This document shows, in pieces, positions 28,826 to 53,791 of a stretch of DNA of 64,000 bases. Each line of letters begins with the position of its first letter. The first letter of the stretch is position 1. This DNA is from an uncultured Bacteroidia bacterium (GTDB lineage: Bacteria > Bacteroidota > Bacteroidia > Bacteroidales > UBA932): contig CACXNA010000009.1 in assembly GCA_902768985.1 (NCBI GenBank), forward strand, positions 1 through 64,000. Reading direction: 5' to 3'. Both the position numbers and the translations under genes were made by a program. The notes under the pieces are model-generated. The model did not search any database, had not been told where the DNA came from, and was given only the letters and a program-made list of their open reading frames with translations.

Positions 28826-30349
28826 ATGAAGAGATTCTTTTTGACGTTGATGACGCTTGTCGCCTTGCCGCTGCTTACCTTTGGGCAGGGACCCCAACCT
28901 GGTAATATGCAGGATTTCCAGCAGTACAGGAGAATGATGGACTGGGCAGGTTTCAACCGTTACGCCGAGGCCAACCAAGCTGTCACGACTGCACCGCTGG
29001 TCGTGTTCATGGGTGACTCCATCACGGATAACTGGGCGCAGATGCGCCCGGGATTCTTCGCGGATCACAACTACCTGGGTCGTGGCATCGGAGCCCAGAC
29101 AGTGGAGCAGATGCTGTCCCGCTTTCAGGCAGATGTCATTGACCTGCATCCGCAGGCCGTCGTAATCCTGGCAGGTATCAATAATATTGCCGGCAACAAC
29201 GGCAAGATCGAGTTTGAGAATATCGTCGGCTGCATCAAGTCCATGTGCGAAGCGGCCCGGGCGAACGGCATCGTGCCGATCCTGTGTTCGCTGACCCCCT
29301 GTCACTTCTTTTTCTGGAATCCGGAGGCGAAACCTGCTCAGGAGGTGGTTCGGCTTAATGGATTGCTTCGGGAATATGCCGGAAAGGCAGGAGTCGCGTT
29401 TGTGGATTATTTTACACCCATGGCCCAGCCCGACGCTTCGCTTTCCAAAGAAGATTCCGAAGATGGCTGTCATCCGACGGTAGCCGGATATGAGAAGATG
29501 GAAGCCATCATTGTTCCGGCCATCGATCAGGCGCTGGCCGCCGCGCGTCCGGCACGTCCTGCTGGCCCAGGCCGTTCCGCCGGTCCTTCCGATTGGGGGA
29601 ATTTCAAGCGCTACGAACAGGCGAATGCCGAGCTTACCGAAGCCCCGCTGGTGGTGCTGATGGGCGACTCGATCACGGACTACTGGTACGACAGTGATCC
29701 GGATTTCTTTACCCGGAATCTTTTTGTGGGCCGCGGCATTGCCGGCCAGACCGCGAGTCAGATGCTTGTTCGCTTCCAGCAGGACGTGGTCGCTTTGCAC
29801 CCGAAGGCAGTCGCTATTATGGCAGGTACCAACGACCTGTGCCAGAATCTGATGGGACAGTCGTACTATCCAGATCAGACGATTTATGACAATATTGTCG
29901 CCATGTGCGAGTTGGCCGGAGCAGCCGGGATCAAGGTGCTGCTTTGCTCCGTCACGCCTTGCGCGCACTATATGCCTGTTCCTGACATCGACGCCGGATC
30001 GCTGATCGTGGCGCTGAATGCCCGGCTTAAAGCGTACGCCGATACACAGAAGAATGTGACTTATGTGGACTACCATACACCGCTCGCTACGCCGGATCTG
30101 GGCCTTCCGGAGAATGGCTCATACGACGGGATCCATCCCTGTATCAACCTTTATGACGACATGGAGCGTATTCTGACTGATAGTGTCAAGAAGGTTTTGA
30201 AGTTGAAGAAGCAGGAATTCTACACCATTCCGTCGGACGAAGCTGAGATTCGCAAGGCCAACGATGACGCTAATCGTCGTGAGAAGGGGATGCCGATGAA
30301 TTTTCAGGGGATGGTCGAGATGATGTCCCGTATGATCCGGCCAAGATAA
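28826..30349 (+). CDS. Tandem-domain SGNH/GDSL esterase
   Basis: ATG 28826 yields a signal peptide (MKRFFLTLMTLVALPLLTFG); the longer frame crosses the promoter. The 508-residue protein holds two SGNH hydrolase domains. Domain 1 has Ser65 in FMGDSITDNW, the block ILAGINNIAGN and DGCHPT. Domain 2 has Ser282 in LMGDSITDYW, IMAGTNDLCQN and YDGIHPC. Both keep Ser, Asp and His; the block-III GxND is GINN in domain 1 and GTND in domain 2. An Ala/Pro/Gly-rich linker lies at about 238-255. It probably deacylates a carbohydrate in the periplasm. It sits 9 bp before the HTCS gene and is likely co-transcribed with it. Confidence 0.82.
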   Translation: MKRFFLTLMTLVALPLLTFGQGPQPGNMQDFQQYRRMMDWAGFNRYAEANQAVTTAPLVVFMGDSITDNWAQMRPGFFADHNYLGRGIGAQTVEQMLSRFQADVIDLHPQAVVILAGINNIAGNNGKIEFENIVGCIKSMCEAARANGIVPILCSLTPCHFFFWNPEAKPAQEVVRLNGLLREYAGKAGVAFVDYFTPMAQPDASLSKEDSEDGCHPTVAGYEKMEAIIVPAIDQALAAARPARPAGPGRSAGPSDWGNFKRYEQANAELTEAPLVVLMGDSITDYWYDSDPDFFTRNLFVGRGIAGQTASQMLVRFQQDVVALHPKAVAIMAGTNDLCQNLMGQSYYPDQTIYDNIVAMCELAGAAGIKVLLCSVTPCAHYMPVPDIDAGSLIVALNARLKAYADTQKNVTYVDYHTPLATPDLGLPENGSYDGIHPCINLYDDMERILTDSVKKVLKLKKQEFYTIPSDEAEIRKANDDANRREKGMPMNFQGMVEMMSRMIRPR

Positions 30350-30358
30350 AAAACACGG

Positions 30359-33172
30359 ATGAAGAGTTTGCTGAGATCATCGTTGTTGACGGTCTTTTGC
30401 GTCCTGTCACTGCTGGCCTGCTCCCGCAAGCCGGAAGTCTTTACCATCGGTGTGTCTCAGTGTAGTGTAGATGCCTGGCGGGAGGCGGCGAACAACGAGA
30501 TTGGACAGGAGGCTTTGTTCTACAACAACCTGAACCTCGTGTTTAAGTCCGTCCGGGATGATTCTCAACAACAGATTGCTGACATCGAGCAGTTTATCGA
30601 AGATGGGGTGGATCTGCTGATCATCTCGCCCAACGAGTCCTCGGCACTTTCACCGGTTGTCGAGAAAGCTTATGACGCCGGTATCCCCGTTGTCCTGTAT
30701 GACCGCAAAGTGGACAGTGACAAGTACACCGCATTCATCGGCGGAGATAATCGTCAGATCGGAAGCATTGCCGGATCGTACACGTTGAGCATTATCGATG
30801 GCCGGAAACGGATTGCCCTCATCCGGGGCACCCGAGGTTCCACGGCAGATACGGAACGTTATGAAGGTTTTGTGTCCGTTCTGGACCAGCAGAAGATCTC
30901 CGGCGCTGCCATCGCTGTAGAAGCATACGCGAATTTTACGCGGGAGGATGCCCGCAAAGCGATGGGGGAGATTTTGTCGAAAACCCGGGAAGAGGACCCG
31001 TACGACCTGGTTTTTGCCTTCAATGACGAGATGGCCGCCGGTGTTTATGATGCCTATGTGGAAGCGGGCATGAAGAAACCATTCATCATGGGCATTGACG
31101 CGTTGTTGGCGGCAGACGGCACCGGAACCATTCCGTATATCCTTGACGGAATGATCGATGCCTCCTTTATTTACCCGACGGGTGGCAATGCCGTGATCAG
31201 CCTCGCACATCGCATCCTAATGGGAGAACCGTTCGAGCGGGAGAATATCCTGAGCACGGAAATGGTGAACCGCACCAACGTCCGGGTGTACCAAACCCAG
31301 GTCAACCAACTGGCCGAGAAGCAGCGTCGGGCAGAAGAGCTGAATTCGCGCATCCAGGCGTACAACCAGCGCTACGAACGCCAGCAGCAGATGATGTATA
31401 TTATCCTTGCCTTTGCCATGATTCTGGGCATGGTTTTGATTTTGTTGGCGTTCACCATGCGGACACGCAACCGGCTCGTGATTCGGCTCAATGAACAAAA
31501 CGCGCAGATTCTCAAGCAGGTGGAGTCTCTGGAAGCACAAAAGAAGCAGCTGATAGACTTGTCCGAACAATTGGAGGAGACGACGCAGGCTAAGCTGAAT
31601 TTCTTTACCAACATCTCACATGAGTTCAAAACGCCGCTATCGTTGATCAGCGGTCCGATCGACGATCTGATTGCCAACAAACAGATGCCTGCGAATGCGG
31701 AGGTCCCATTGGACATCCTTAAGCGCAACAGCAGCAAGCTTACGCGCCTGATCACGGAGTTGCTGGACTTCCGTACGCTGGAGAGCGGTAACCTGGCGGT
31801 CAATTATTCCATGGGCAATCTGGACACGTTCCTGCGTGAAATCCTCAAAATGTTCGCGGATGTGATCCGTCGCAGGAACCTTCATTTCGAATATGAAGTG
31901 GACGATTCCGGCTACGAGATCCCTTTTGACCCGATCAAGATGGAGAAGGTATTCACGAACCTGCTTTCCAACGCTTTCAACCATGTAGACAAGGAAGGAA
32001 CCATTCGTATCCGCTTGTCCTCTACGCCGATAGAGTCCGGTCGCGACATCAATCTTTCGGTATTCAACAGCGGCTCGTATATTCCGCCGGAGAATATAGA
32101 GAAAATCTTCCAGCGTTTCTATACGCTGGATGCGGAGCAGAAGGGTACGGGAATCGGCCTGGCGCTCGTGACCTCGCTGGTGGATGCGCTCGGCGGCGTC
32201 ATACAGGTGGACAGTGAGCAGGCCACCGGAACGACCTTTACGGTCAAGATTCCGCTGGAGAAGGACCTGCTTACGGATGCCCGTTTCAACACGAAAACCT
32301 ATGTTCCGGAATTCGCCAAGCTTAAACTTGCCACGATGGGCGAAGAGGACGTAGCTTCCGGTATCCTGGACGAGATGGCCCGGGAAGAAGGAAAACCTAC
32401 CGTTCTTGTGATTGAGGACAATGTGGACATGCGTTACTATATCCGTACGATCCTCTCCTCCGATTATCACGTCTTGCTCGCAAAGGACGGCAACATTGGC
32501 ACTTCCAAAGCATTCAAACTACTGCCGGACATCGTCCTATGCGATATCATGATGCCCGACATGGACGGCTATGAGGTTTGCCGCCAGCTCAAGGGGAATC
32601 CTTCCACGAAAGACATCCCCATCATCCTGCTGACGGCCTGTTCGCTGGACGAGCAGCGCGCCCGGGGCTACGAAAGCGGTGCGGAGGCTTTCATGCAGAA
32701 GCCTTTCAACGTGACGACGCTGAAGGTGCGCATGCGCCAACTGCTTCAGCGCAAGGAACAAATCTCTTCCGAGATTCAGGGAGACTGGCTGATCGGCCGG
32801 AAGGCAGGGACACTTTCTTCCGCTGCGGCCACGATGCTCAATAGATTCCGCGAGTATGTCGAAGAGCATATCATGGAGAACATCAGCCTGGATGAGATTG
32901 CCCAGCATCTGGGTTACTCCAAGAGTAAGCTCTACAGGGAGCTGAAAGACGTGACGGAGTATTCTCCGATCGACCTGGTAAACCTGGTCCGCCTGCACAA
33001 GGCGGTGGATCTGATGACGCGTGAGCAGCAGAATATCACCGAGGCAGCATTCAATACCGGTTTCTCCTCGCCGTCCTATTTCTCCCGCACCTTCCTGAAG
33101 TATTATTACATGCGGCCGAAGGATTATATCAAAGGGAAACAATCGTCGCATTCTTCTGAAGAATCGTGCTAG
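30359..33172 (+). CDS. Hybrid two-component system sensor-regulator (HTCS) with periplasmic sugar-binding domain
   Basis: The 937-residue protein has, in order: a signal or lipoprotein-like N-terminus; a type-I periplasmic sugar-binding domain (about 28-310, FTIGVSQCSVDAWREA, VVLYDRKVDSDKYTAFIGGD); one membrane helix (345-368); HisKA with His421 in NISHEFKTPLSL; an ATPase domain (FTNLLSNAFNHV, GTGIGLALV); a receiver with Asp729 in VLCDIMMPDMDG; and an AraC-type DNA-binding domain (about 820-925). This arrangement, rather than the reg_prop propeller type, is that of the fructose-sensing HTCS of Bacteroides thetaiotaomicron (BT1754). With GH32 and fructokinase genes nearby, it most likely senses fructose or a related monosaccharide and activates the locus. 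Confidence 0.9.
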   Translation: MKSLLRSSLLTVFCVLSLLACSRKPEVFTIGVSQCSVDAWREAANNEIGQEALFYNNLNLVFKSVRDDSQQQIADIEQFIEDGVDLLIISPNESSALSPVVEKAYDAGIPVVLYDRKVDSDKYTAFIGGDNRQIGSIAGSYTLSIIDGRKRIALIRGTRGSTADTERYEGFVSVLDQQKISGAAIAVEAYANFTREDARKAMGEILSKTREEDPYDLVFAFNDEMAAGVYDAYVEAGMKKPFIMGIDALLAADGTGTIPYILDGMIDASFIYPTGGNAVISLAHRILMGEPFERENILSTEMVNRTNVRVYQTQVNQLAEKQRRAEELNSRIQAYNQRYERQQQMMYIILAFAMILGMVLILLAFTMRTRNRLVIRLNEQNAQILKQVESLEAQKKQLIDLSEQLEETTQAKLNFFTNISHEFKTPLSLISGPIDDLIANKQMPANAEVPLDILKRNSSKLTRLITELLDFRTLESGNLAVNYSMGNLDTFLREILKMFADVIRRRNLHFEYEVDDSGYEIPFDPIKMEKVFTNLLSNAFNHVDKEGTIRIRLSSTPIESGRDINLSVFNSGSYIPPENIEKIFQRFYTLDAEQKGTGIGLALVTSLVDALGGVIQVDSEQATGTTFTVKIPLEKDLLTDARFNTKTYVPEFAKLKLATMGEEDVASGILDEMAREEGKPTVLVIEDNVDMRYYIRTILSSDYHVLLAKDGNIGTSKAFKLLPDIVLCDIMMPDMDGYEVCRQLKGNPSTKDIPIILLTACSLDEQRARGYESGAEAFMQKPFNVTTLKVRMRQLLQRKEQISSEIQGDWLIGRKAGTLSSAAATMLNRFREYVEEHIMENISLDEIAQHLGYSKSKLYRELKDVTEYSPIDLVNLVRLHKAVDLMTREQQNITEAAFNTGFSSPSYFSRTFLKYYYMRPKDYIKGKQSSHSSEESC

Positions 33173-33193
33173 TTTTTCCGGCCGTTCGATCAT

Positions 33194-33201: not shown

Positions 33202-33221
33202 TACAGACTTCAAAGCAAATT

Positions 33222-34961
33222 ATGAAGAAAGGATTGATCATCGCGCTGGCCGGCCTGTTGGCCGTTACCGGTGCCACCGCACAAAAGAAGACGCAGCCGA
33301 GCTGGCTGAGCGATGCTGTGTTCTACCAGATTTATCCCTCCTCCTATCAGGACAGTGACGGAGACGGTTACGGCGACCTGAAAGGCATCATGTTGCGCCT
33401 GGACTATATCCAGTCCATTGGCGTGACAGCCATCTGGCTCAATCCGGTCTATGTGTCCGGGTGGACGGATGGCGGCTACGATGTGATTGATTTCTACCGG
33501 GTTGACAAGCGTTTTGGCACCAACTCCGACCTTGTTGAACTGATTCGTCAGGCCCACGCTCGGGGGATAAAGGTGGTGATGGATCTGGTGGCCGGACACT
33601 CCTCCGATCAGAACGAGTGGTTCCTCCAGTCGAAAGAAGCCCCGGATCTCCGCTATTCCGACTATTACATCTGGCCGAGCTTCAAACCGGAGGACAATAC
33701 GCCGGCGCCCAAGCCGGGGGAGGCCTTCGACTACGCTGCGCTCATGAACTCGAGCGCCGCGCTGATCCGCAAATTTGTCGCTTCCGATGCGCCGCGCGGT
33801 CCCTTCTATATCAAAAACTTCTATGATACGCAGCCGGCCTTGAATTTCGGCTTTGCCAATCCTGATCCCGAACATCCCTGGGAGCAGGCGGTGGACGCTC
33901 CCGGGCCCATGGCCATGCGCCGTGAGATTAAAAATATCATCTCTTTTTGGATGGACAAAGGTGTCGATGGTTTCCGGGTGGATATGGCTGCGAGTTTGGT
34001 GAAGAATGATTTCGACAAGTCTGCCACCATCAGACTGTGGAAGGAGGATTTCACGAAATGGTTCGACGAAGCATACCCTGAGGGCGTGCTGATTGCTGAG
34101 TGGTTCAATCCGGCGCAGTCCGTGGCGGCGGCCAATTTCGATATAGACTTTTTCTGCCATGATGGACAGTACAACTATTCTTCGCTGTTCTTTTACAACC
34201 ACCGTGGCTTTGGCGCCAATGCTGCTGCGGCGCCGTACTTTGACAAAGCCGGACAGGGCGAGTTGAAGACCTGGTTTGAACTTTATTCGTACCAGTACGA
34301 TGCCGTCCATGGCCGGGGCTATGTGAGCATGCCGTCGGGCAACCACGACTTTAACCGAGTCTGTACGGAGGGACGTACGAATCCCGAAGAGCTAAAGGTC
34401 GCGATGACATTCTTCCTGACGATGCCGGGCGTCCCGTTTATCTTTTATGGCGACGAGATCGGCCTCAAGCAGAATCCGAACGCTCCGTCCACGGACGGTT
34501 CCGGTCCCCGCGCAGGGTGTCGCGTTCCTATGCTTTGGGACGGCACGGCTAATGGCGGTTTCTCCACGGCCCCCGTCGGGGAAATTTACATCCCGCAGGA
34601 TCCTGATCCGAACCGGATGACCGTAGAGAAGGCGGAAGCTGATCCGAATTCACTGCTCCATTATGTCCGTATGCTGCTTCGTCTGCGCAAGGACGTCAAG
34701 GCGCTTGGCGCCGATGCGACCTGGCGACTGGTGAGTAGCCTGGACCAGCCCTACCCGATGGTTTATGAACGCAGGCTTGGGGATGAGTGCTGCTATGTGG
34801 TGCTCAACCCGTCTGGTAAGCAGGTGAGCGTGACGCTCCCGCAGGCGGTCTCGCGCCCGGAAATCATCGGCGGCAGCTATAAGAAATGCAGCTACAAGCA
34901 AACCCGGAAGGGAGATATCGTTACCCTCTCTCCGACATCGGCAGTTATCTTCAAGTTCTGA
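33222..34961 (+). CDS. GH13 glycoside hydrolase (alpha-amylase family), secreted
   Basis: The 579-residue protein has a signal peptide (TGATAQ, about residue 21) and a GH13 barrel opening with AVFYQIYPSSYQDSDGDGYG. Catalytic candidates are Asp254 in VDGFRVDMAA, Glu293 in VLIAEWFNP and Asp376 in SGNHDFNR; a C-terminal beta domain follows. The HSSDQNEWF and IYP signatures resemble oligo-1,6-glucosidase, trehalose-synthase and sucrose-hydrolase subfamilies. In a locus for fructose-containing glycans, a role on sucrose-like or terminal glucosyl linkages is plausible but inferred. The stop codon overlaps the next start by one base. Confidence 0.85.
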   Translation: MKKGLIIALAGLLAVTGATAQKKTQPSWLSDAVFYQIYPSSYQDSDGDGYGDLKGIMLRLDYIQSIGVTAIWLNPVYVSGWTDGGYDVIDFYRVDKRFGTNSDLVELIRQAHARGIKVVMDLVAGHSSDQNEWFLQSKEAPDLRYSDYYIWPSFKPEDNTPAPKPGEAFDYAALMNSSAALIRKFVASDAPRGPFYIKNFYDTQPALNFGFANPDPEHPWEQAVDAPGPMAMRREIKNIISFWMDKGVDGFRVDMAASLVKNDFDKSATIRLWKEDFTKWFDEAYPEGVLIAEWFNPAQSVAAANFDIDFFCHDGQYNYSSLFFYNHRGFGANAAAAPYFDKAGQGELKTWFELYSYQYDAVHGRGYVSMPSGNHDFNRVCTEGRTNPEELKVAMTFFLTMPGVPFIFYGDEIGLKQNPNAPSTDGSGPRAGCRVPMLWDGTANGGFSTAPVGEIYIPQDPDPNRMTVEKAEADPNSLLHYVRMLLRLRKDVKALGADATWRLVSSLDQPYPMVYERRLGDECCYVVLNPSGKQVSVTLPQAVSRPEIIGGSYKKCSYKQTRKGDIVTLSPTSAVIFKF

Positions 34962-36766
34962 TGAAAAAGTTATTGTCCATCTGTACCGTTGCGCTCCTGT
35001 TCCTGTCCTGTGGGCAGGAGAAGGCCGGTCGCATCCTCCTCCTTCCGATCAGGGAGGCGAATGATGAGATTACGCTGACCATTGAAAAAAGCGGGGAGAC
35101 GCTCTATGTAGCGGATATCCGCCTGGCTCGGGAAGGGGAGGAACCCGATTATTGTTTTCCCCTTGATCTGGGACATTTTGGTGCGTCGAAATGCGATGTA
35201 TCTTTCCGAGGGATTGAGGCGGCTCAAGCCTGGGCGCTGATTCGGCTGTCTGACACTGCGCCTGAAATACCGGCGGAGCCATATCGGCCAGTCTATCATC
35301 ACACGCCGCCTTATGGCTGGATGAATGATGCCAACGGCCTGTTTTATAAAGATGGAGTGTATCATCTTTATTATCAATATAATCCTTATGCGTGCGTCTG
35401 GGGGAATATGCACTGGGGCCATTCGACCAGTACGGATCTTGTACACTGGGAACATCAGCCGGTTGCGCTTTACCGTGATGGATATGGTCACATTTTCTCC
35501 GGCAGTTCCGTGGTGGACTTCGACAATACGGCAGGTTTCGGAGCGGCCGCTGTGGTTTCGTTCTATACTTCTTACAACACAGAGCGGGAGTTCATCCAAA
35601 CCCAGTGTCTTGCCTACAGCCTGGACGACGGGCAGACCTTCACCAAGTATGAGGGCAACCCCGTGCTGACCCCTTTTGACGGCATCAAGGATTTCCGGGA
35701 CCCGAAGGTCTTTTGGTACGAGCCCGAGCGAAAGTGGATCATGATCGTATCGGCGGACAAGGAAATGCGTTTCTATAGCTCCCGGAACCTCAGAGAATGG
35801 GATTACATGAGTGCCTGGGGAGAAGGGTACGGAGTGCAGCCGCGCCAGTTCGAGTGTCCGGATTTCTTCCAGCTGACAACGGCGGAAGGAGAAACGAAAT
35901 GGGTGTTGATCGTCAACGTGAACCCCGGGTGTTTCTTCGGGGGCAGTGCGACACAGTATTTCGTCGGTGAATTCGACGGCACGTCCTTCACCTGTGACTC
36001 GCCGAAAGAAACAGTCAAATGGCTGGATTGGGGTAAGGACCATTATGCCACGGTTTGTTTTTCCAACACGGGCGATCGCGTGATCGCTGTGCCCTGGATG
36101 AGCAACTGGCAGTACGGCACCATTGTGCCGACCCGCTATTTCCGGAGTGCTAATGCCATTCCCCGGGAGTTGGGTCTCTTTAAACAGGGGAAGGAGTTCT
36201 ATGTCAGTGCGCAACCGGTCGCAGAGCTTGCCGGCCTTGAGAAGGGATCCCGGACTGTCGGCGAGATCGGCGTGAACCCGGACAAGACGCAACGACTAGC
36301 CCTTTTTGACCGCACAGATGGTGCTTATGAACTGGAAATGACGCTGGACGTCCCGCCGGTGGGTCGTGCCGGTTTCCGGCTCACCAATGCCGCCGGGGAG
36401 GTTGTGGATCTGTATTTCGATGCTGCGTTGCAGCGTTTCGTGACGGATCGCACGAAGAGCGGGGTCATCGGATTCGGTGAGCAAAGCACGACCCACGAGA
36501 TCGAGAACCACGACAGGCGCAAGACGAACGCCATGAACTATGTCAACGATTTTGCCCTGGCCACCTGGGCCCCGATGAACGTTGCAGGCAAGCATACACT
36601 AAAGCTACTCTATGACTTGACATCGTTGGAGGTGTTTATCGACGGAGGCCGGGTGGCAATGACCAACCTGGTGTTCCCGAGCGAGCCTTACGATACGCTC
36701 GAGCTTTGGTCCGATCGGACCAAGTTCTTGGTCGAAGAGATTAATATAACTAAGTTGGCACTTTGA
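34961..36766 (+). CDS. GH32 beta-fructosidase, lipoprotein
   Basis: ATG 34961 overlaps the GH13 stop (TGATG) and gives MKKLLSICTVALLFLSC with a lipobox (Cys about 17). After a small N-terminal beta domain (about 20-100), the GH32 propeller has nucleophile Asp123 in GWMNDANG, transition-state stabiliser Asp247 in FRDPKV and acid/base Glu298 in FECPDFF. A C-terminal beta-sandwich (about 450-601) contains LEVFIDGG. This is the exo-acting fructan/levan/sucrose fructosidase type, comparable with the GH32 enzymes of known fructan loci. It would release fructose for the HTCS, permease and fructokinase of this locus. Confidence 0.92.
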   Translation: MKKLLSICTVALLFLSCGQEKAGRILLLPIREANDEITLTIEKSGETLYVADIRLAREGEEPDYCFPLDLGHFGASKCDVSFRGIEAAQAWALIRLSDTAPEIPAEPYRPVYHHTPPYGWMNDANGLFYKDGVYHLYYQYNPYACVWGNMHWGHSTSTDLVHWEHQPVALYRDGYGHIFSGSSVVDFDNTAGFGAAAVVSFYTSYNTEREFIQTQCLAYSLDDGQTFTKYEGNPVLTPFDGIKDFRDPKVFWYEPERKWIMIVSADKEMRFYSSRNLREWDYMSAWGEGYGVQPRQFECPDFFQLTTAEGETKWVLIVNVNPGCFFGGSATQYFVGEFDGTSFTCDSPKETVKWLDWGKDHYATVCFSNTGDRVIAVPWMSNWQYGTIVPTRYFRSANAIPRELGLFKQGKEFYVSAQPVAELAGLEKGSRTVGEIGVNPDKTQRLALFDRTDGAYELEMTLDVPPVGRAGFRLTNAAGEVVDLYFDAALQRFVTDRTKSGVIGFGEQSTTHEIENHDRRKTNAMNYVNDFALATWAPMNVAGKHTLKLLYDLTSLEVFIDGGRVAMTNLVFPSEPYDTLELWSDRTKFLVEEINITKLAL

Positions 36767-36785
36767 TCCTTTCAACAAATTAATC

Positions 36786-37754
36786 ATGATGAAATACTCC
36801 AGAATACTGGCAATCGCCGCCGCGTTGTTGTTAATGGCTTCCTGCGGGGTGGACAAGACGGCCGGTACCATTGGTGACGGTAATCCGGACAAGCCCCAAG
36901 TTTCAGCGGGCAAGCTTGACTTCTATCCGAATTTTGAATCAAAGTCCGGGCTGGTGACGCCGCGGAACGTGTATGTCTGGCTCCCGGCCGACTATGCCAA
37001 GCATAAGAAATATGCCGTCGTGTACATGAGCGACGGGCAGAATCTGTTCGATGCCGAGAAGATGTTCAACCACCAGGAATGGTGCGTCGATGAGGTTTTC
37101 GGCGAGCTGTTGGAGGCGGGCCGGATCCAGAACTGCATCGTGGTCGGCGTGGCCAACTCTTTCCGCACCCGGAGCCAGGAATACTTTCCCCAGGATGTAT
37201 TCGAGCGCTATTCTCCCGCGTTGAAGGAATACGCGAAAAGCAAACGGATGGGGGAGGATGAGCTGCTGGGCAACGATTATCTGAAATTCCTGGTTGAGGA
37301 GCTGAAGCCCTTCATCGACGCGACCTATTCCACGCGCAAGGATCGGAATCACACGTTCCACATGGGATCCAGTATGGGGGGCCTGATCTCCTCGTATGCC
37401 GTTGCCAAATATCCCAATGTGTTCGGCGGCGCGGGCTGTCTCTCGACGCATTCCGTCCTCTACATCACTAATTATGATGCGGAGCAGGATTTCATCGATC
37501 CGGCCAACCAGTGCTATGTCGACTATCTCCGGGAGACGCTCAAGCCCAACAGCTGCAAGCTGTACATGGACCGAGGCGACCAGACCCTCGACGCCCAGTA
37601 TCCCAAGTATCAGGATCGCCTGGATGCGATGTTCCGGGAGGCCGGTTGGGATGACTCCCATTATGTCAGCCAGGTATTCCCGGGCCTGGCCCATGTCGAG
37701 GGCTCCTGGGCACAGCGCCTGGATGTCCCCGTACTTTTTCTCCTTGGTAAATAA
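36786..37754 (+). CDS. Esterase D/PF00756-type alpha/beta hydrolase, lipoprotein
   Basis: The 322-residue protein starts at ATGATG (36786/36789) and has a lipobox (LLMASC, Cys20). The alpha/beta-hydrolase fold of the esterase family is indicated by YVWLPADYAKHKKYAVVYM, DGQNLFD and nucleophile Ser196 in HMGSSMGG; a late acidic residue and the His in LAHVEGSW complete a plausible triad. Family members include feruloyl and acetyl esterases fused to or near glycosidases. It lies 20 bp after GH32 and is one of four consecutive hydrolases. Confidence 0.78.
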   Translation: MMKYSRILAIAAALLLMASCGVDKTAGTIGDGNPDKPQVSAGKLDFYPNFESKSGLVTPRNVYVWLPADYAKHKKYAVVYMSDGQNLFDAEKMFNHQEWCVDEVFGELLEAGRIQNCIVVGVANSFRTRSQEYFPQDVFERYSPALKEYAKSKRMGEDELLGNDYLKFLVEELKPFIDATYSTRKDRNHTFHMGSSMGGLISSYAVAKYPNVFGGAGCLSTHSVLYITNYDAEQDFIDPANQCYVDYLRETLKPNSCKLYMDRGDQTLDAQYPKYQDRLDAMFREAGWDDSHYVSQVFPGLAHVEGSWAQRLDVPVLFLLGK

Positions 37755-37774
37755 AAGCAATCAATAATGTGACT

Positions 37775-38818: not shown

Positions 38819-38860
38819 TCCGATAATACATTATAGAACAATGCATTAACCGATATGCTG

Positions 38861-40351: not shown

Positions 40352-40371
40352 GTATTTGAAAGTAAATGGAT

Positions 40372-46500: not shown

Positions 46501-46746
46501 GACTTCACGCAGCTTGATGCGACCTATTTCCGCCTCAAGAGCTTCGAGATCGGCTATACGCTTCCGAAGAGCGTCACCTCCAAGGTTGGCCTTCGTTCCG
46601 CCCGCATCTATGTCGGCGGTACCAACTGGCTGACCCTGACCAACAAGAAGATCGCCGCTTACGATCCTGAATCCGCGGCTGCGATGCAGTCCAACACCAT
46701 GCCGGTCATGCGTACCGTGACGATGGGTGTCAATATCAACTTCTAA
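43546..46746 (+). CDS. susC: SusC/RagA-type TonB-linked outer-membrane importer
   Basis: ATG 43546 gives a signal peptide (MKKLLLLTLAMALTLIGS, cleavage near SAQ); the longer frame reads into the fructokinase gene. The 1066-residue protein has a carboxypeptidase-like domain (about 27-105, VNVVDSYGPVAGASVMVKG), then the plug with VGYGTQKKESLTSAITSV and GLLIRQSGGTPGSFGADIS, then a 22-strand-type barrel to the end. It forms the outer-membrane channel with the SusD lipoprotein encoded 13 bp downstream. The expected cargo is a fructose-containing oligosaccharide, inferred from the neighbours. Confidence 0.93.
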   Translation: MKKLLLLTLAMALTLIGSIQVSAQNMSVKVNVVDSYGPVAGASVMVKGTTNGQATDLDGNATINNVSAQTVLVISFIGCTTQEVTVGNRSEINVTLVEDAEMLEETVLVGYGTQKKESLTSAITSVRSEDVTKTKQNDVVTALQGKVPGLLIRQSGGTPGSFGADISLRGYGAPLIVIDGVVRSNGYSNANKGINTDLEFSQLNPEDIESISVLKDASASIYGLGAGNGVIMVTTKKGSAMKKPSVSYSNIFSFGRPKMPQEVSIADYVKMSNEMADVAKFNRPFSDEDIKAAENGTLANFSWWNAAMKHHSTTQTHNLSVRGGNETLTYFLSGSFNDDRSIYNSPNNFWYQRYTLRGNFTFKLTDDLSVDYQTSFRATASANPANDDSYNEKSNMIFNYIAFSDRFTPATVKDNPNHYTYQGQSPTENPIAMMDHNLNYTDKRGRAFTNTLNVNYNPSFVKGLKLLLQGAYDFNYDGTYTKKTIYPLYDYETDEILGYGGDENSYREVVSERERLYGRFQANYNKVWGKHNLSAMVAAELTKMNTRNQMSKRLFGDFFTHSTVSSGLAGTDTATGTRRSTATAGYLARVNYEYASRYLVEVMGRYDGTYIYQKGKRWGFFPSYSLGWRLSEESFIKNNAPWISNLKIRWSDGKTGLTQGAAYAYQMGYTAGNTYVFTPGSQVQGYVNEEVANTILTWADIRLMNAGLDWNFWHDKFSGTFDIFQRLTKGIAGSSSGSTPTILGVDEPQINIDSRVTAGMELTLSHRNRIGEFEYYVTGTGTISRTMNLHIESQATSKYYASMNYYGAGFLMNGSASTQNRWTDYHGLWKYGLEGGRFTSWNDIYNSPVKYDANSGMQTTVIGQYKLWDWNGDGYITAHDVQYAWPEANPSFQFGLNFGFNYKNFDFNMVWQGATMTSKIIWLLHTFGFGGYNNIYTMYLDRYHVANQGDDPYDPTTQWVEGYWPALMDSSDANNWRPGMYDAPSDFTQLDATYFRLKSFEIGYTLPKSVTSKVGLRSARIYVGGTNWLTLTNKKIAAYDPESAAAMQSNTMPVMRTVTMGVNINF

Positions 46747-46759
46747 TATGCACACTCCG

Positions 46760-48721
46760 ATGAAAAAGATATCATTCATTCTGTCCGCGCTTTTGTGCCT
46801 TTCGCTGACCTTCACTTCCTGCGAGGCTCTCTTCGACAACCTCGAAGGCGACCTGACCAAGATGACGGGCGAGGACATGGCTTCTTCGGAAGCAGGTATC
46901 CAGATGTTGCTGGCCGAAGTATACTCTTATATCCCGATGAATGCATACGGGTACGAGGACCAGTATACGATGAATGCAGCCGACAGCCACGGTGGTGACT
47001 ACGGCTTCAATTCCAACCCTTACTATGGTATGTACGGTATCCAGACCTTCTGGAACTGGGGTGCCATCCGTACCATCAACAACTTCATAGAGATCGTTCA
47101 GGATGCGGCTGAGCGCAGTGTCGTGACCGCCGCAGCTGCCAAAAGCTATGTGGCGGAAGCCCGCTTCGTGCGTGCATACTGCTACTTCGTCATGGTCCGC
47201 AATCTCGGCGGTGTCCCCATTATCACGGAGCCGCTGGACAAATACTATGACGGACATGGCAATGAGCAGCTTTTCGCGTTCGCCAAGCGAGCCACGGAGA
47301 AAGAGACCTGGGATTTCGTTTTAACCGAATTCCAGGCTGCCGCCGACGACCTGGAGGACGAGCCGGTTGCGCAGTTCCGCGCCGACAAGTACGCAGCCCT
47401 TGGCATGAAAGCTCGCGCTGCTCTCTACGCGGCTTCCGTCAGCAAGTATTGGACCGCCCGGGGCGGCATCTCTACCCAGTATCAGGCGGTTGCCAATAAG
47501 AAGACCTACATGGAGGAGAGCTATGCCAATGCTTACTACAAGCAGTGTATTGACGCTTGCGACGCCATCATCAGCAGCGGTAAATTCGCTCTTTACGGGG
47601 CTTCGCCTGCCAGTGTCGAGGATGCTGTCAAGAACTTGGGAGACATGTTCCGCACCGTGGCCAAGGAGGAGTTCATCTTTGGCCGGAGCCTTGACAACGG
47701 TGTCGCTTCTGCCGGCAGCGATTTCGATGTGTACAACAGCCCTGCCCAGACCGTGACCGGCAACTCCAGTTGCGGAAAGTACTCCGTCACCATTGACTTC
47801 GTGGATAAGTTTGACAACTACGATGCGGCCTTCGGTGCTGTGGACGGCACCGTCAAGACCCGTGCCGACGGAAAAGAAAACGAATACTTCAACGCGGTCC
47901 TGACCCGTTTCCCTGCCGAATACAAAGATATTCCGTACATTGAGTATGATAAGATCAACGAGCCGTTCCTGAACAAGGATGCCCGCTTCCAGGCCTGGAT
48001 CCTGTACCCGGATGCCCAGTTCCGCGGCCAGACCATTAAAATCCAGGGTGGTATGATCCACCAGGATGGCAGCGCCAAGCTCTGGGTAGAGGACAGCGAG
48101 ACCGTCGATGGCACGACGTATTATTCCTTCGGCGACCTGACGGGCAATGTTTCCGGATTCTTTAACTACGAGAACAAGATGGCGGGTAACACCGTGACCA
48201 CGGGTTTCAGCATCCGCAAGTACCTGGATCCCGCCACGTTCCAGCTCTACCACAAGACTTTCTGGTATGACATCCGCTATGCCGAAATCCTGCTCTCCTA
48301 TGCGGAGGCGGTGGCAGAGAGCGGACAGGGCGACCCGTCCAAGGCCAAGCAGTACTTGAACGCTATCCGTCGCCGTGCGGCTTTCAAAGATGAGATCGAC
48401 CTGACGGTTGAGAATGTCCTGCACCAGCGTGAACTCGAGTTAGCTTTCGAGGGGGACCAGCTCTACACCCTGCACCGACGCCGCGCCTTCTATGATAAGC
48501 TGAATGACGCGCCGGTCAAAGGCAAGAAGCACGCCTTGACCCCGGTCATCGATCTGCGGGGCGGCTCGCCGAAGTACATCTTCGTCCGTTCTATCCACTA
48601 CGCGGAGGACCCGCTCACGGGAGGCAAGGCATCTGACTATCATACGGATCCGAAAAACTATTACGGCCGCATCAGCGACTTCAGCGTGAATGGGTACGAA
48701 CCTAATCCTGCTAACGAATAA
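46760..48721 (+). CDS. susD: SusD/RagB-type glycan-binding lipoprotein
   Basis: ATG 46760 gives MKKISFILSALLCLS and a lipobox ending at Cys21 (TFTSC); an in-frame ATG at 46748 is possible. The 653-residue protein has the helical TPR-like fold of the family: AEVYSYIPMNAYGYED, KSYVAEARFVRAYCYFVMV in the N-terminal half, and near the C-terminus the RagB signature IRYAEILLSYAEAVAESG and LNAIRRRAAF, with LHRRRAFYDKL. It sits on the surface as a lid on SusC and captures the glycan. It is followed 12 bp on by the DUF3823 lipoprotein. Confidence 0.93.
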   Translation: MKKISFILSALLCLSLTFTSCEALFDNLEGDLTKMTGEDMASSEAGIQMLLAEVYSYIPMNAYGYEDQYTMNAADSHGGDYGFNSNPYYGMYGIQTFWNWGAIRTINNFIEIVQDAAERSVVTAAAAKSYVAEARFVRAYCYFVMVRNLGGVPIITEPLDKYYDGHGNEQLFAFAKRATEKETWDFVLTEFQAAADDLEDEPVAQFRADKYAALGMKARAALYAASVSKYWTARGGISTQYQAVANKKTYMEESYANAYYKQCIDACDAIISSGKFALYGASPASVEDAVKNLGDMFRTVAKEEFIFGRSLDNGVASAGSDFDVYNSPAQTVTGNSSCGKYSVTIDFVDKFDNYDAAFGAVDGTVKTRADGKENEYFNAVLTRFPAEYKDIPYIEYDKINEPFLNKDARFQAWILYPDAQFRGQTIKIQGGMIHQDGSAKLWVEDSETVDGTTYYSFGDLTGNVSGFFNYENKMAGNTVTTGFSIRKYLDPATFQLYHKTFWYDIRYAEILLSYAEAVAESGQGDPSKAKQYLNAIRRRAAFKDEIDLTVENVLHQRELELAFEGDQLYTLHRRRAFYDKLNDAPVKGKKHALTPVIDLRGGSPKYIFVRSIHYAEDPLTGGKASDYHTDPKNYYGRISDFSVNGYEPNPANE

Positions 48722-48733
48722 AACAAACAAGTC

Positions 48734-49561
48734 ATGAAAAAATTACTCTTCATACTTCCGCTTCTGTGGCTCTTCAGCGCTTGCTCGCTGTTCGAGATGG
48801 ACAACTACGCCGGACCGAATGCTTCGATTACCGGAAGAATCCTCGATGCCAAGACCGGAGAACTGGTCCCGACCGAGTGTAAGTACGGCAACTTCTTCGG
48901 AGGAGCATATTTCGGCACTCCGACTACGGGATATTTCTCCGTAGTTGAGAAAGATTATTCCGAGGTGTATGACATCCCCCTGGAGGGCTCCGGCACCCAG
49001 TACTGGCACATCAAATACGATGGATCTTACGCGAACACCCAGGTTTTCTCCGGGAACTATCGTATTTCCGCCCTTTCCAACAACTTCTACCCCATTACCA
49101 AAGACGATGTGCGCATCGAAAAGGGGGAGAATACTCTTGACTGGGAAGTCGTTCCGTACTGCCGCGTGGTCGATCCGAAGATCGAACTCCAGGGTGGCAA
49201 GTTCGTTGCGACCTTCAAGGTGGAATTGGGCGATCCGTCCAAAGCCAACGCGGTTTACGATGCCAAGTTGCTTTGCTATCCTGACGCTTTCGTTGGTGTT
49301 TATTGCAACTATTGTGACCAGGATCAAGGTGCGAACTCACGCTCGCTGATAGACCAGTCGGTCGTGACGGAGATCATCGCTGACGGCCAGACGGTCAACA
49401 CCTTGACCATCGACCCGACGAATCCGCTGAACCAGGCAGAATTCAAATATGTCGGCAAGGGAAAAGAGCACTTCTTCCGCATCGCCGTCTGTGCCCAGGG
49501 GAATGGTGCAAATATGAGCCGTTACTATAATTATAGCACGACTTTTGTTATTGAATACTAG
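48734..49561 (+). CDS. DUF3823-type surface lipoprotein
   Basis: The 275-residue lipoprotein has lipobox FSAC (Cys17), then SLFEMDNYAGPNASITGRI, the opening of DUF3823 proteins that routinely follow SusD. Two beta-sandwich domains can be inferred (about 25-130 and 140-275). Family members are thought to be accessory glycan-binding or scaffold proteins of the SusCD complex. It has no catalytic motif. Confidence 0.78.
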   Translation: MKKLLFILPLLWLFSACSLFEMDNYAGPNASITGRILDAKTGELVPTECKYGNFFGGAYFGTPTTGYFSVVEKDYSEVYDIPLEGSGTQYWHIKYDGSYANTQVFSGNYRISALSNNFYPITKDDVRIEKGENTLDWEVVPYCRVVDPKIELQGGKFVATFKVELGDPSKANAVYDAKLLCYPDAFVGVYCNYCDQDQGANSRSLIDQSVVTEIIADGQTVNTLTIDPTNPLNQAEFKYVGKGKEHFFRIAVCAQGNGANMSRYYNYSTTFVIEY

Positions 49562-49594
49562 TACCCTCTGGAATAACACTTTGAACATAAGAGT

Positions 49595-50950
49595 ATGAAA
49601 ATCAATCGAATCCTTATTGTCTGCGCACTCCTGCTCGCCACTGTGGCGGCAGGTGCGCAGACCCATGTCCGAGGCCAGCTGAAGGCCGGTGCGTCCAAAG
49701 TGGACGTCACGCCTGCAGCGGACCAGCTGGGCCGGAATTCCTACGGAATCCTGGATCGCACGCACGTGCGTGTTATTCTCTTCTCGAACGGTACGACCAT
49801 CGCCGGCCTTGCCAATGTGGACGGCAACCCGAACCAGCGCTGCGTCGACGCTGTCAATGCGCGTATTGAGAAGGAATTCGGCATTCCGCAGGGTAACATC
49901 ATCTATAATGGCACCCATTGCCACTCGACCGGAACCGTCCCGCAGGACGAACTGACCGAGCGGATGTACCAGGCTGTCAAACAGGCGTACAAGAACATGG
50001 TTCCCGCCAAGGTTGGCGTGGGCAATGGCGTGTGCTATCTGAACGTCAAGCGTGACCTTTTCGACCCGGAGCGCGGTACCTGGTGGGAAGGCCCGGACTA
50101 CGATGGCAAGTCTGATAAGACCGTTTCCGTGATCTACTTCGAAAGCCTGGACGGCAAGCCCATCGCGACTTACTACAACTATGCGATGCATGCCGTCATC
50201 ACCGGTCAGCTCGACATGATCACGGGAGACTTCCCGGGCAAGTCCGAGGAGTATATCGAAAGCCGCTACGGCGACGATTTCGTAGCTGTGTTTTCTTCCG
50301 GCGCCGCCGGCGATCAGAACCCGCTTTATTTCCAGCAGACCTTCGATCTGCGCGACATCCGTATCGCAGATTATGCCAAGCGTGGGGAGGATATCTCCAA
50401 TGCGATGCCTCCGGGAGGCCAGGGATTGGACCGAAACAATCCTGAAGTTCACCGCCTGATGGAGGAGCAGAAACGTATGGCTGAAAGCTATGGCCAGCTG
50501 CTTGGCGAAGAGGTGAAGTATGTGATTATGATGATGCGCCGTTTCGAGACCAACGTGACGTTGGAGGCAGCCCGTACCCACATCTCCTGTCCGGGCCGTC
50601 GCCAGACCAACGGTGGCGGGCGTGCCGGCTATGCCGGTGAGTATGTGGACACGGACGACATCGTCCTGGAACTCGGTCTTGTGATGCTGGACAATATCCC
50701 CGTCTGCGCCGTTTCCGGAGAAGTTTATAACCAGATTGCCGTCGAATTGAAGAACAAGTCCCCGTATTCCTTCACGATGATGACTACCGTGACGGATGGC
50801 CACAATGGTGGCTGGGGTGGTTATATCCCTGACGACGAGTCTTACGGCGCACAGGTGTTCGAGGTGCTTGGCTCCGGCTATAAGCAGGGCTATGCGCAGA
50901 AGCGTATCGTCGATGGCTTGCTCGACCTGATTCATAGCGCTACGCACTGA
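49595..50950 (+). CDS. Neutral/alkaline ceramidase-like hydrolase, copy A
   Basis: The 451-residue secreted protein (signal peptide to about residue 22, AGAQ) matches the N-terminal domain of the neutral/alkaline non-lysosomal ceramidase family: LKAGASKVDVTP, VRVILFSNGTTIAGLANVD, a zinc-binding motif His108-Cys-His110 in NGTHCHSTG, YNYAMHAVITG and SSGAAGDQNP. The usual THTHSG is changed to THCHSTG, so metal or substrate handling may differ. Short ceramidase-like proteins occur in Bacteroidota carbohydrate loci; their substrates are not established. It is followed by a close paralog with overlapping start. Confidence 0.8.
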   Translation: MKINRILIVCALLLATVAAGAQTHVRGQLKAGASKVDVTPAADQLGRNSYGILDRTHVRVILFSNGTTIAGLANVDGNPNQRCVDAVNARIEKEFGIPQGNIIYNGTHCHSTGTVPQDELTERMYQAVKQAYKNMVPAKVGVGNGVCYLNVKRDLFDPERGTWWEGPDYDGKSDKTVSVIYFESLDGKPIATYYNYAMHAVITGQLDMITGDFPGKSEEYIESRYGDDFVAVFSSGAAGDQNPLYFQQTFDLRDIRIADYAKRGEDISNAMPPGGQGLDRNNPEVHRLMEEQKRMAESYGQLLGEEVKYVIMMMRRFETNVTLEAARTHISCPGRRQTNGGGRAGYAGEYVDTDDIVLELGLVMLDNIPVCAVSGEVYNQIAVELKNKSPYSFTMMTTVTDGHNGGWGGYIPDDESYGAQVFEVLGSGYKQGYAQKRIVDGLLDLIHSATH

Positions 50951-50961
50951 TGCACGAAATA

Positions 50962-52308
50962 ATGAAAAAGATCATGCTGACCCTGCTGGGAGTGTTTGTG
51001 CTCGCAGCAGGGTTCTGCCACGCGCAGCGTGGGCAGCTCGCTGCCGGGGCCGCCCGGGTGGATATTACTCCTGATGAGGCAACGCTTCCGAAAACATCCC
51101 AGGGCATCCTGGATCATTGCTACGCCCGTGCCATCGTTTTCACGAACGGTACCACCAAGGCGGCGTTCGTGTCCATGGATGCGGCGATGAGTAACAATCG
51201 GATGGTCGCCGCAGTCAACGAACGCGCATTCAAGGAGTTGGGTATTCCCGAAGGGAACATACTCTACAACTGGACGCACACGCATTCCGGCTCGTCCGTT
51301 TTTGGCGAAGAACTCAACAATCGCGTCTTCCAGGCCTTGAAGGAAGCCAATGACCGTCTCGTGCCCGCCAAGGTAGGATATGGCGACGGTGTTTGCTACC
51401 TCAATGTCAAACGTGATCTCTTTGATCCGGAGCGAGGAACCTGGTGGGAAGGTCCTGATTATGACGGCAAGTCTGACAAGACCGTTGCTGTTATTTATTT
51501 CGAGAGTCTGGATGGCAAGCCCATCGCGACCTACTTCAACTATGCGATGCATGCCGTGATCACCGGCAATACCGACAAGGTGAGCGCTGATTTCCCCGGA
51601 GCGGCGGAAACGTATATCGAGAGCCGTTATGGTGACGACTTTGTAGCGTGCTTCGCTTCCGGTGCCGCCGGCGATCAGAATCCGATTTATTTCCAGCAAA
51701 CCTTCGATCTGCGAGACATCCGAATAGCGGATTACGCGGCGCGCGGTGAAGACATCTCCAACGCGATGCCTCCGGGAGGTCAGGGACTGGACCGCAGCAA
51801 ACCTGAGGTGCAGCGCCTTCTGGGTGAGCAGGAACGGATGATCCGCAGCTATGGGCAGATTCTTGGCGAGGAGGTTAAGTATGTCATTATGATGATGCGC
51901 CGCTTCGAGACCGATGTCACGCTCAAGTGTCTGCACAAGACTGTCTCCTGTCCGGCCCGCCGGCAACTCAACGGCGGTGGGCGTGCCGGCTACGAAGGCC
52001 AGTACGAGGACGCCGGTGAGGCCACGATCGACCTTCATCTGACGATGCTCGATGATATCCCCGTGGTGGGTACGAGCGGTGAGCCGTACAATCCGATAGC
52101 GGTGGAGCTGAAACAGAAATCTCCTTATGCGCGCACCATGCTGACCACGCTTTGCCAAGGCACGTTCACGGGTTACATCCCCGATGACGAGTCCTACGGC
52201 GCCCAGTCCTTTGAGGTGTTGGGCTCCCGTTTCAAGCAGGGCTATGCGCAGAAAGCAATTGTTGACGGTGCGCTGGACTTGATCCATGAGGCTACGCATG
52301 GAGAATAA
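50962..52308 (+). CDS. Neutral/alkaline ceramidase-like hydrolase, copy B
   Basis: ATG 50962 gives MKKIMLTLLGVFVLAAGF, a signal peptide; an ATG at 50950 overlapping the upstream stop is also in frame. This copy keeps the canonical His106-Thr-His108 motif (NWTHTHSGSS). It shares long identical blocks with copy A, such as GVCYLNVKRDLFDPERGTWW, FDLRDIRIADYA and AMPPGGQGLDR, so the two arose by tandem duplication. Divergence is greatest around the active-site loop and the C-terminal third. It probably hydrolyses an amide or ester; ceramide itself is unlikely given the context. Confidence 0.8.
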   Translation: MKKIMLTLLGVFVLAAGFCHAQRGQLAAGAARVDITPDEATLPKTSQGILDHCYARAIVFTNGTTKAAFVSMDAAMSNNRMVAAVNERAFKELGIPEGNILYNWTHTHSGSSVFGEELNNRVFQALKEANDRLVPAKVGYGDGVCYLNVKRDLFDPERGTWWEGPDYDGKSDKTVAVIYFESLDGKPIATYFNYAMHAVITGNTDKVSADFPGAAETYIESRYGDDFVACFASGAAGDQNPIYFQQTFDLRDIRIADYAARGEDISNAMPPGGQGLDRSKPEVQRLLGEQERMIRSYGQILGEEVKYVIMMMRRFETDVTLKCLHKTVSCPARRQLNGGGRAGYEGQYEDAGEATIDLHLTMLDDIPVVGTSGEPYNPIAVELKQKSPYARTMLTTLCQGTFTGYIPDDESYGAQSFEVLGSRFKQGYAQKAIVDGALDLIHEATHGE

Positions 52309-52321
52309 GAATTGTCAGCAT

Positions 52322-53791
52322 ATGAAAAAGATCTTTGCGGTTGCGACGCTCGCCGTCGCGTTCAGTGCCGGGTTGTATGCCCAGCAAAGAATCATCCTTC
52401 CGGACCTGCTTCAGGGAGAAATTGTGCTTCAACAGCAGACTGACGCCCGGATCTGGGGGAAAGCCGCTCCCGGAGCGCAGGTAACGGTGAGCACCCCCTG
52501 GAACGGGCGTGATTACCGGACGAAGGCCGGGGCGGACAGCCTTTGGAGCGTGGGTGTTGCGACGCCGGAGGCCAGTTATACGCCCTATGACATAACAATT
52601 GCCAGCGGCCGGGACCAGGTGGTCCTGGAGGATGTGCTGATTGGCGATGTCTGGATCTGCGGAGGCCAGAGCAATATGGCCATGCCTGTTAAGGGAATGT
52701 ATAACTGCGCCGTGGACCAGGCCGCTGAAACCATCCTGCATTCTGCGAAAAACAAAGGCTTGCGTTACGTGACCGTTGAGCAACACCAGGCCACCGAATC
52801 GGACCCGGGTTACTTCACAAAAGGCAGTTGGCATAAGAGCGGTCCCGCCACGGCGGGGGACTTCAGTGCCACGGGCTACTTCTTCGGCCAGGCACTTCGC
52901 GAAGCGCTGGACTATCCGGTCGGATTGATCAGCTGCAACTGGAGCGGTTCCTTTGTTGAGGATTGGATGGACAAGGAGCTGGTGGAGAAGTATCCCAACC
53001 AGGAGTTGTTCGGTGCGGAGTTTACGAAAGCCCCCACCAAGATGTACTACGGTATGTTTGAGCCCGTCAGCCGTTATACGGTTAAGGGAATGATCTGGTA
53101 CCAGGGCGAGTCGAATGTCGGCAGTCCGGATTACACGGAACGTCTGCTGGCGGCGGTTGATCTGTGGCAGCGCAAGTTGGAACTTGAAAAACTCCCGTTC
53201 TATCTGGTTGAGATAGCCCCGTTCAACTACAATAAGGGTTTTGACCTCTTGTCCGGCGACCTGCGCGCACAGCAGCTCAAGGTCGCCCGGTCTCTGCCGG
53301 AATCCGGGTTGGCTTGTACAAATGATTTGGTGTACGCCTATGAGGCTGACCAGATCCATCCTGCCCAGAAAAAGGCCGTCGGCGAGCGTCTGGCCATGCT
53401 TGCACTCAGCAAGACGTATGGATTTGGCAACCCGTGCGAAGGCCCCGTTTACAAGGAAATGATTGTAGATGGTGGGGCCGTGTCTGTCCTGTTTGACAAC
53501 GCTCCCAATGGTTTTACCAATAACGGCGACATCCAGGGCTTCGAGCTTGCCGGCGAGGATGGTGTCTTCTATCCTGCCAAGGCGACCGTGGGCTTTGCCC
53601 CGATGCGGCAGACTCCGGGCGCACAGCGCGGTTTCGGCATGATGGGCTTTGCCGTTCGTCTGACTTCGGACCAGGTTCCTGCTCCGGTGGCGGTGCGTTA
53701 TGGCTTCGGCCCGTTCAAGCCGGGCAATTTGCATAATGTTGAAGGCTTACCGGTCTATCCGTTCCGTACGGATGACTGGCCCTTGAAATAA
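52322..53791 (+). CDS. Sialate O-acetylesterase-like (SASA) carbohydrate esterase
   Basis: ATG 52322 gives a signal peptide (MKKIFAVATLAVAFSAGLYAQ); the longer frame overlaps the previous gene. The 489-residue protein has an N-terminal beta-sandwich (about 25-105, LQGEIVLQQQTDARIWGKA), then the SGNH esterase with Ser117 in ICGGQSNMAMP, GMIWYQGESN and the Asp/His pair in YEADQIHPAQKK. Members deacetylate sugars such as sialic acid or acetylated polysaccharide. It is the last gene of the SusCD operon; a terminator follows. Confidence 0.85.
   Translation: MKKIFAVATLAVAFSAGLYAQQRIILPDLLQGEIVLQQQTDARIWGKAAPGAQVTVSTPWNGRDYRTKAGADSLWSVGVATPEASYTPYDITIASGRDQVVLEDVLIGDVWICGGQSNMAMPVKGMYNCAVDQAAETILHSAKNKGLRYVTVEQHQATESDPGYFTKGSWHKSGPATAGDFSATGYFFGQALREALDYPVGLISCNWSGSFVEDWMDKELVEKYPNQELFGAEFTKAPTKMYYGMFEPVSRYTVKGMIWYQGESNVGSPDYTERLLAAVDLWQRKLELEKLPFYLVEIAPFNYNKGFDLLSGDLRAQQLKVARSLPESGLACTNDLVYAYEADQIHPAQKKAVGERLAMLALSKTYGFGNPCEGPVYKEMIVDGGAVSVLFDNAPNGFTNNGDIQGFELAGEDGVFYPAKATVGFAPMRQTPGAQRGFGMMGFAVRLTSDQVPAPVAVRYGFGPFKPGNLHNVEGLPVYPFRTDDWPLK

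Follow-up and report, generated by a model that had tools for sequence, protein, structure and literature searches.

What substrate is served by a bacterial locus in which putative genes for the release, uptake and phosphorylation of fructose are interleaved with eight genes for esterases or ceramidase-fold hydrolases? The question is raised by a cluster of about 25 kb in the gut-type Bacteroidales genome of an uncultured Bacteroidia bacterium (lineage UBA932; assembly GCA_902768985.1), lying in the first 64,000 nucleotides of contig CACXNA010000009.1, the whole stretch analysed here and hereafter called the window. A preliminary description of this DNA had proposed the use of an acylated fructoside. 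The reading we favour, with a probability of about 0.6, is that a SusCD-type locus here serves the utilisation of acylated sucrose or of small plant esters built on sucrose; hydroxycinnamoyl, acetyl or aliphatic residues are candidates for the acyl groups that it may remove.

Fusion proteins and gene neighbourhoods

The strongest evidence that the GH13 enzyme of the locus and its esterases share one substrate comes from fusion proteins in relatives. Pfam scans place GH13 on one polypeptide with a PF00756 esterase in loci L006 and L007, and with a BD-FAE-type alpha/beta hydrolase in L008 and L039; L006 and L007 also encode fusions of an SGNH domain with a ceramidase-fold domain, and one L006 protein carries two BD-FAE-type domains. 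Each type of GH13 fusion is present in a pair of distinct assemblies, an argument against assembly error, and at the GH13 junctions the esterase starts, as judged by eye, close to the expected end of the signal peptide.

A contig search with the window GH13 gave 38 loci, and a close set (at least 62% identity, n = 28 including the window) was compared with a distant one (30-51% identity, n = 28). L024 and L025, two contigs of one genome, count as a single locus, L062 was left out because it duplicates L018, and L091 and L092, apparently the same records as L022 and L012, were not counted; the distant set includes closely similar Ruminococcus loci and short contigs (e.g. L026, L027, L029, L070, L072, L076). 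Most of the 38 loci are labelled as Bacteroidales, Bacteroidia or Bacteroidetes, many of them with a ruminant host, and the remaining ones as Ruminococcus/Clostridia, Verrucomicrobia, one Bacillota and one Chitinophagales; the letters 'AS' or 'WAS' in some names suggest digester or sludge samples. A same-strand esterase at most four genes away from GH13, or fused to it, occurs in 19 of the 28 close loci and in none of the 28 distant ones, as detected with profiles that were built from the GH13 loci themselves and are therefore biased towards them. Applied to eight control regions from the genome of the window itself, the same profiles recovered the sole BD-FAE gene placed there by Pfam, which gave no PF00756 match in these regions. 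Chance clustering can be rejected, since in 20 background regions from eight family genomes (among them G593, which has no GH13 match), picked by hand at round coordinates rather than at random, only 11 of 322 genes had a same-strand esterase at most four genes away.

As one check, the preliminary description had proposed to look in other genomes for this esterase set next to GH32, and the outcome bears its expectation out. GH32 was matched at E 1e-60 in 26 family genomes; the window's genome and G096 were set aside, and 17 of the other 24 were taken. None of these 17 loci, which have GH32 without GH13 in the stretch examined, has a same-strand esterase within four genes; L144 has one esterase on the opposite strand, the locus L143 contains only two genes, and ten open reading frames (ORFs) near GH32 in six of the 17 loci gave no esterase with Pfam. 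Conversely, seven of the eight GH32 genes in six GH13 loci, the window included, have a same-strand esterase at most four genes away, the exception being L017, where GH32 lies at the contig edge. L006 and L007 are rich in esterases and have no GH32 in the stretch examined. Because of these loci and of the fusions between GH13 and esterases, the conserved partner of the esterases is GH13, not GH32, which is optional; the idea of an acylated fructoside is thus supported, but with GH13 as the central partner in place of GH32. A long version of the locus is found on one contig of G096 (L158 and L065; GH13 identity 62-64%), with GH32, MFS, kinase, two SusCD pairs, GH13, a hybrid two-component system (HTCS) and many esterases.

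Some relatives show further features. L017, a low-GC (0.42) Bacteroidetes contig, sludge-type by name, holds nearly the full set, mostly at 25-71% identity: a partial GH32, MFS, kinase, SusCD, PF00756 genes, GH13, a ceramidase-fold gene, carboxylesterase and SGNH. A GH127-like protein was found by Pfam within the esterase run of L019 (13759-16110), and L024 (4743-7040) has an unlabelled ORF of comparable length at about the same place. Beside the GH13 of L012, which has no linked esterase, Pfam identified a PF03417/choloylglycine-hydrolase-like gene on the opposite strand (7153-8286); an ORF in L013 (11710-12843) matches it in size and place.

Gene content and composition of the cluster

Pfam scans of the window matched every gene named in the preliminary description (GH32, GH13, a fructokinase-type PfkB, SusCD, HTCS, esterases and ceramidase-like proteins) at or very near the positions it had given. 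All cluster genes are on the plus strand with short gaps between them, and with SusC next to SusD, hydrolases that run in the same direction and a regulator, the locus has the organisation of a SusCD polysaccharide utilisation locus:

28826-30349 (ORF from 28736), +, tandem SGNH/GDSL acylhydrolase with a signal-peptide-like N-terminus (PF13472 and PF00657, in two stretches)
30359-33172, +, HTCS with a periplasmic fructose-type sensor domain (Pfam)
33222-34961, +, GH13, predicted exported sucrose (acyl-sucrose) alpha-glucosidase (PF00128)
about 34961-36766 (ORF from 34886), +, GH32 of exo-inulinase/invertase type, lipoprotein-like (PF00251, PF08244, PF16352)
36786-37754, +, PF00756 esterase with a GSSMG motif, lipoprotein-like (Pfam; relative fused to GH13 in L006, L007)
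37769-38818, +, alpha/beta hydrolase of the BD-FAE family (Pfam; relative fused to GH13 in L008, L039)
38855-40351, +, carboxylesterase, PF00135, lipoprotein-like (Pfam)
40366-41310, +, alpha/beta hydrolase, BD-FAE/Abhydrolase_3 (Pfam)
41488-42651, +, MFS sugar permease 1, predicted fructose importer (PF07690)
42648-43502, +, PfkB sugar kinase 1, predicted fructokinase (PF00294)
about 43546-46746 (ORF from 43399), +, SusC-type TonB-dependent transporter (TIGR04056, 730 bits)
46727-48721, +, SusD-type lipoprotein (PF07980, PF14322)
48734-49561, +, DUF3823 lipoprotein-like protein, probable surface sugar-binding accessory (PF12866)
49595-50950, +, ceramidase-fold hydrolase 1 (PF04734)
50950-52308, +, ceramidase-fold hydrolase 2 (PF04734; relative fused to SGNH in L006, L007)
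52286-53791, +, SASA-family carbohydrate esterase (PF03629)
53949-55112, +, MFS sugar permease 2, host-like codon composition (PF07690; third-codon GC 0.87)
55109-55957, +, PfkB sugar kinase 2, host-like codon composition (PF00294; third-codon GC 0.89)

The hydrolases have signal-peptide- or lipoprotein-like N-termini, judged by eye and not with a signal-peptide program. The esterases of the alpha/beta-hydrolase and SGNH types, again inspected by eye, show GxSxG or GDS motifs, with two GDSIT blocks in the tandem SGNH protein. PDB relatives of the window esterases gave weak matches, which do not point to one acyl type. The best PDB match of GH32 is the exo-inulinase 8i12, and the DUF3823 match scores 26.7 bits, just under the cut-off of 27. 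PF00756 and BD-FAE have 19 match rows each in the window's genome, one and four of them inside the locus; since these families are common genome-wide, what is unusual is the tight cluster and not the families. The second MFS-PfkB pair (53949-55957), which lies beyond the earlier gene list, has 77% DNA identity to the first (41488-43502). Upstream of the cluster, at 23097-26150, a SASA esterase domain is fused to a GH51-type arabinofuranosidase, in a gene that adjoins two GH54-type proteins with lamin-tail domains.

The two ceramidase-fold genes occur in their own genome only at this locus (search at E 1e-60), and PF04734 genes are present in eight of 199 family genomes. All seven genomes with a close GH13 carry them (Fisher P 4e-12, descent ignored), while G080 and G149, which have only a distant GH13, have none. 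The model of the second protein, of modest confidence with a mean predicted local distance difference test score (pLDDT) of 60, resembles neutral ceramidases with E values from 1e-16 to 4e-15 (4wgk, E 1.3e-16; 2zxc, E 7.6e-16), and the THxHS histidine motif of these enzymes, as well as a later His, Glu and Tyr, is invariant in eight aligned sequences, two from the window and six from relatives. However, all eight read GDQNP where human ceramidase has GDVSP, so that the GDxSP serine, which we take to be catalytic, is replaced by Asn. A true ceramidase activity is therefore disfavoured, and the window proteins, which also differ from neutral ceramidase in belonging to a sugar locus, probably hydrolyse some other ester or amide. 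An insertion that is strongly conserved (GTWWEGPDYDGKSDKT; YFQQTFDLRDIRIADYA) is flanked in both tandem genes (49595-52308) by long internal stretches that are nearly identical between the two.

The cluster also differs from its surroundings in composition. The 16 genes that run from SGNH through SASA have a third-codon GC of 0.64-0.74, compared with 0.81-0.92 in the seven flanking genes measured; the first MFS-PfkB pair is island-like in this respect and the second host-like (0.87, 0.89). In L004, a relative from sheep omasum that has much of the gene set, values of 0.62-0.77 extend over the whole stretch. Of three genomes examined from the same genus, two, G593 and G600, lack the island at the corresponding site; their flanking genes are present in a rearranged order, so that the comparison does not show a clean insertion; a GH13 of the island type was not found in these two genomes, which are 81% and 77% complete. 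In the third, G641, SusC, SusD, DUF3823, both PF04734 genes and SASA are at the corresponding place, and GH13 is on another contig. Among the 199 family genomes GH13 was found at E 1e-60 in nine, the window's included. The block at 28.8-53.8 kb was probably acquired as one island; the distribution fits horizontal gain or repeated loss, and a direction of transfer is something that we infer.

The sugar substrate and its alternatives

Is sucrose the sugar that carries the acyl groups? The window GH13 has a catalytic Asp/Glu/Asp triad (D254/E293/D376) invariant in 20 GH13 sequences, and its model (mean pLDDT 85) is nearest in fold to the sucrose isomerase MutB, with MalL and TreS almost equal. 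Fold and triad are those of GH13_31-type enzymes (MutB, oligo-1,6-glucosidase), from which it differs in several features: identity in the structural alignment is about 25%, a Met, to our knowledge rare elsewhere, follows the nucleophile, the N-terminus resembles an export signal and relatives are fused to esterases. A link to fructose is provided by the HTCS (Pfam domains Peripla_BP_4, HisKA, HATPase, receiver and AraC), whose sensor domain is closest to the PDB 2x7x 'sensor protein' (232 bits over 287 residues), presumably the fructose sensor BT1754; similar sensors adjoin GH13 in L022 (36% sensor identity) and L065 (49%). Raffinose can be degraded by an alpha-galactosidase plus a sucrase. 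In L068 (9075-12716, minus strand) a GH97 domain, with the alpha-galactosidase 3a24 as top match (773 bits), is fused to a GH13 of 45-47% identity, a possible single-protein enzyme for the conversion of raffinose to monosaccharides; this fusion in a distant relative supports sucrose as the substrate. A similar raffinose-to-sucrose logic, with BT1871 and separate GH32 sucrases, is described in a study on Bacteroides thetaiotaomicron (PMC11501099).

Several observations weigh against acylated sucrose. Sucrose specificity of GH13 is predicted from context, since the MutB, TreS and MalL folds score alike, and so is the sugar of the first PfkB protein, the only one of the two scanned with NCBIfam: its score against the fructokinase model is 98 bits, far under the cut-off of 450, and its best models all remain under their cut-offs. 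G193 carries PF04734 and has no GH13 match. When ten ORFs that adjoin distant GH13s or are fused to them were scanned with Pfam, two proteins overlooked by the profiles came to light, an AXE1 esterase in L073 and a PF00144 protein in L072; with both included, 19/28 versus 2/28 still contrasts (Fisher P about 4e-6), although the loci share descent and P values ignore kinship. Finally, nine of the 28 close loci have no linked esterase. In three of them, L020, L023 and L066, the contig breaks off at GH13, and L066 has a run of ceramidase-fold, alpha/beta-hydrolase and PF00756 genes several genes from it. The other six are not truncated. No esterase cluster is found in the stretch examined of L009, L010, L012 and L013; in L009 and L010 a kinase directly follows GH13, with no GH32 in the stretch examined, and L012 and L013 have neither a linked esterase nor an adjoining kinase there. 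L063 and L064 have no same-strand esterase within four genes, and their genomes carry an unlinked cluster (L156, L157) in which an SGNH~ceramidase-fold fusion stands beside PF00756 and alpha/beta-hydrolase genes.

The alternative that survives best, though we regard it as unlikely, is a mixed locus, in which sucrose, raffinose or fructan would be used in plain form and the esterases would act on another substrate, such as acylated arabinoxylan. GH54, GH51 and SASA domains do lie directly upstream of the cluster, GH51 homologues recur near GH13 in L006, L007, L008, L012 and L023, and feruloyl esterases that act on cell walls are among the members of the BD-FAE and PF00756 families (6rzo and 1jjf are matched weakly). 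Yet two kinds of fusion join an esterase to GH13 itself, the GH54 and GH51 genes of the window are host-like in third-codon GC, and G593 has both, and G600 has GH54, without the island.

Rather more doubtful is an acylated alpha-glucoside other than sucrose, for example trehalose, maltose or a glucosyl-polyol, which a GH13 acting as a general alpha-glucosidase would cleave, the fructose genes being a separate module. Such a substrate would suit an enzyme as near in sequence and fold to TreS, MalL and oligo-1,6-glucosidases as to sucrose isomerase, as well as L005 and L015, which combine GH13 and esterases with no fructose genes in the stretch examined; against it, the GH13-kinase pairs of L009 and L010 and the GH97~GH13 fusion point to a step that releases fructose, and BT1754-like sensors stand beside GH13 in L022 and L065.

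Improbable, and the least probable of the three, is an acylated fructan or fructo-oligosaccharide, a polymer that would lose its ester groups before GH32 cuts it, in the manner of a levan or inulin locus with added esterases. Among the known systems closest to the window is PUL22, the fructan/RFO locus of B. thetaiotaomicron (BT1754-BT1765), which, as described in PMC11501099, is induced by fructose via BT1754 and holds the fructose transporter BT1758 and the fructokinase BT1757. The window shares with it a BT1754-type HTCS, a fructose-type MFS, a PfkB kinase and GH32, and adds GH13 and the eight esterase or ceramidase-fold genes. Fructan loci also share SusCD, which we take to be part of PUL22 as well, and the window SusC is related to PDB entries 8aa4 and 5t3r, the latter presumably a levan SusC. 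However, Pfam gave no match to PF16346 (BT1760-like GH32, which we take to be endo-acting) or PF16324 (DUF4960) in the core genes of the window, whereas L139, a same-genus locus of levan-type look, has both, together with SusD, SusC, MFS and kinase; L140, also of this genus, carries the BT1760-like domain and L141 repeats the gene order of L139. Without these two proteins a small sucrose ester fits better than an acylated fructan, and a fructan polymer is also at odds with the esterase-rich GH13 loci that have no GH32 (L006, L007) and with the 17 GH13-less GH32 loci. Among the substrates first considered, sucrose esters are thus favoured and acetylated fructan is not.

Proposed route and its meaning

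For acylated sucrose, the following order of steps is one that we infer from the gene families. The compound would be imported by SusC, SusD and the DUF3823 protein, and the exported SGNH, alpha/beta-hydrolase, SASA and ceramidase-fold enzymes would strip its acyl groups at the outer membrane or in the periplasm, as their families and catalytic motifs suggest. The glucose-fructose bond would then be cut by GH13 from the glucose side, often together with an esterase, as the fusions indicate, by GH32 from the fructose side, or by both. Free fructose would be taken up by the MFS permease and phosphorylated by PfkB, and its detection by the BT1754-like HTCS would switch the locus on.

Such compounds are available in plants, where phenylpropanoid sucrose esters form a broad group of metabolites, according to PMC11397724. 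Plants also degrade acylsucroses, with ASFF1, which we take to be a GH32 enzyme. In Solanum, as PMC7599763 reports, ASFF1 hydrolyses acylsucroses and acylsugar acylhydrolases remove their chains. Fructofuranosidase cleavage and chain removal are common to that turnover and to the route proposed here; the plant process belongs to trichome metabolism and involves neither import nor GH13, and the likeness drawn here is one of chemical logic. In the open-licence literature searched no account of such a locus, as regards substrate, gene set or a ceramidase in loci of this kind, was present among the matches listed.

More tentatively, at somewhat below even odds, the locus may represent a gut-type system dedicated to plant acyl-sucroses, an island moving horizontally among ruminant and digester Bacteroidales; its hallmark would be a GH13 acyl-sucrase, fused to an esterase in some species, and the branch of the ceramidase fold that is not ceramidase would be a sugar-ester hydrolase. 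If this is true, substrates would be found for families now described only as BD-FAE-like, PF00756 or ceramidase-like, and ready-made fusions of esterase and glycosidase would be at hand. Moreover, the disarming and eating of plant acyl-sucroses by bacteria would link plant specialised metabolism to fermentation in the rumen and in digesters.

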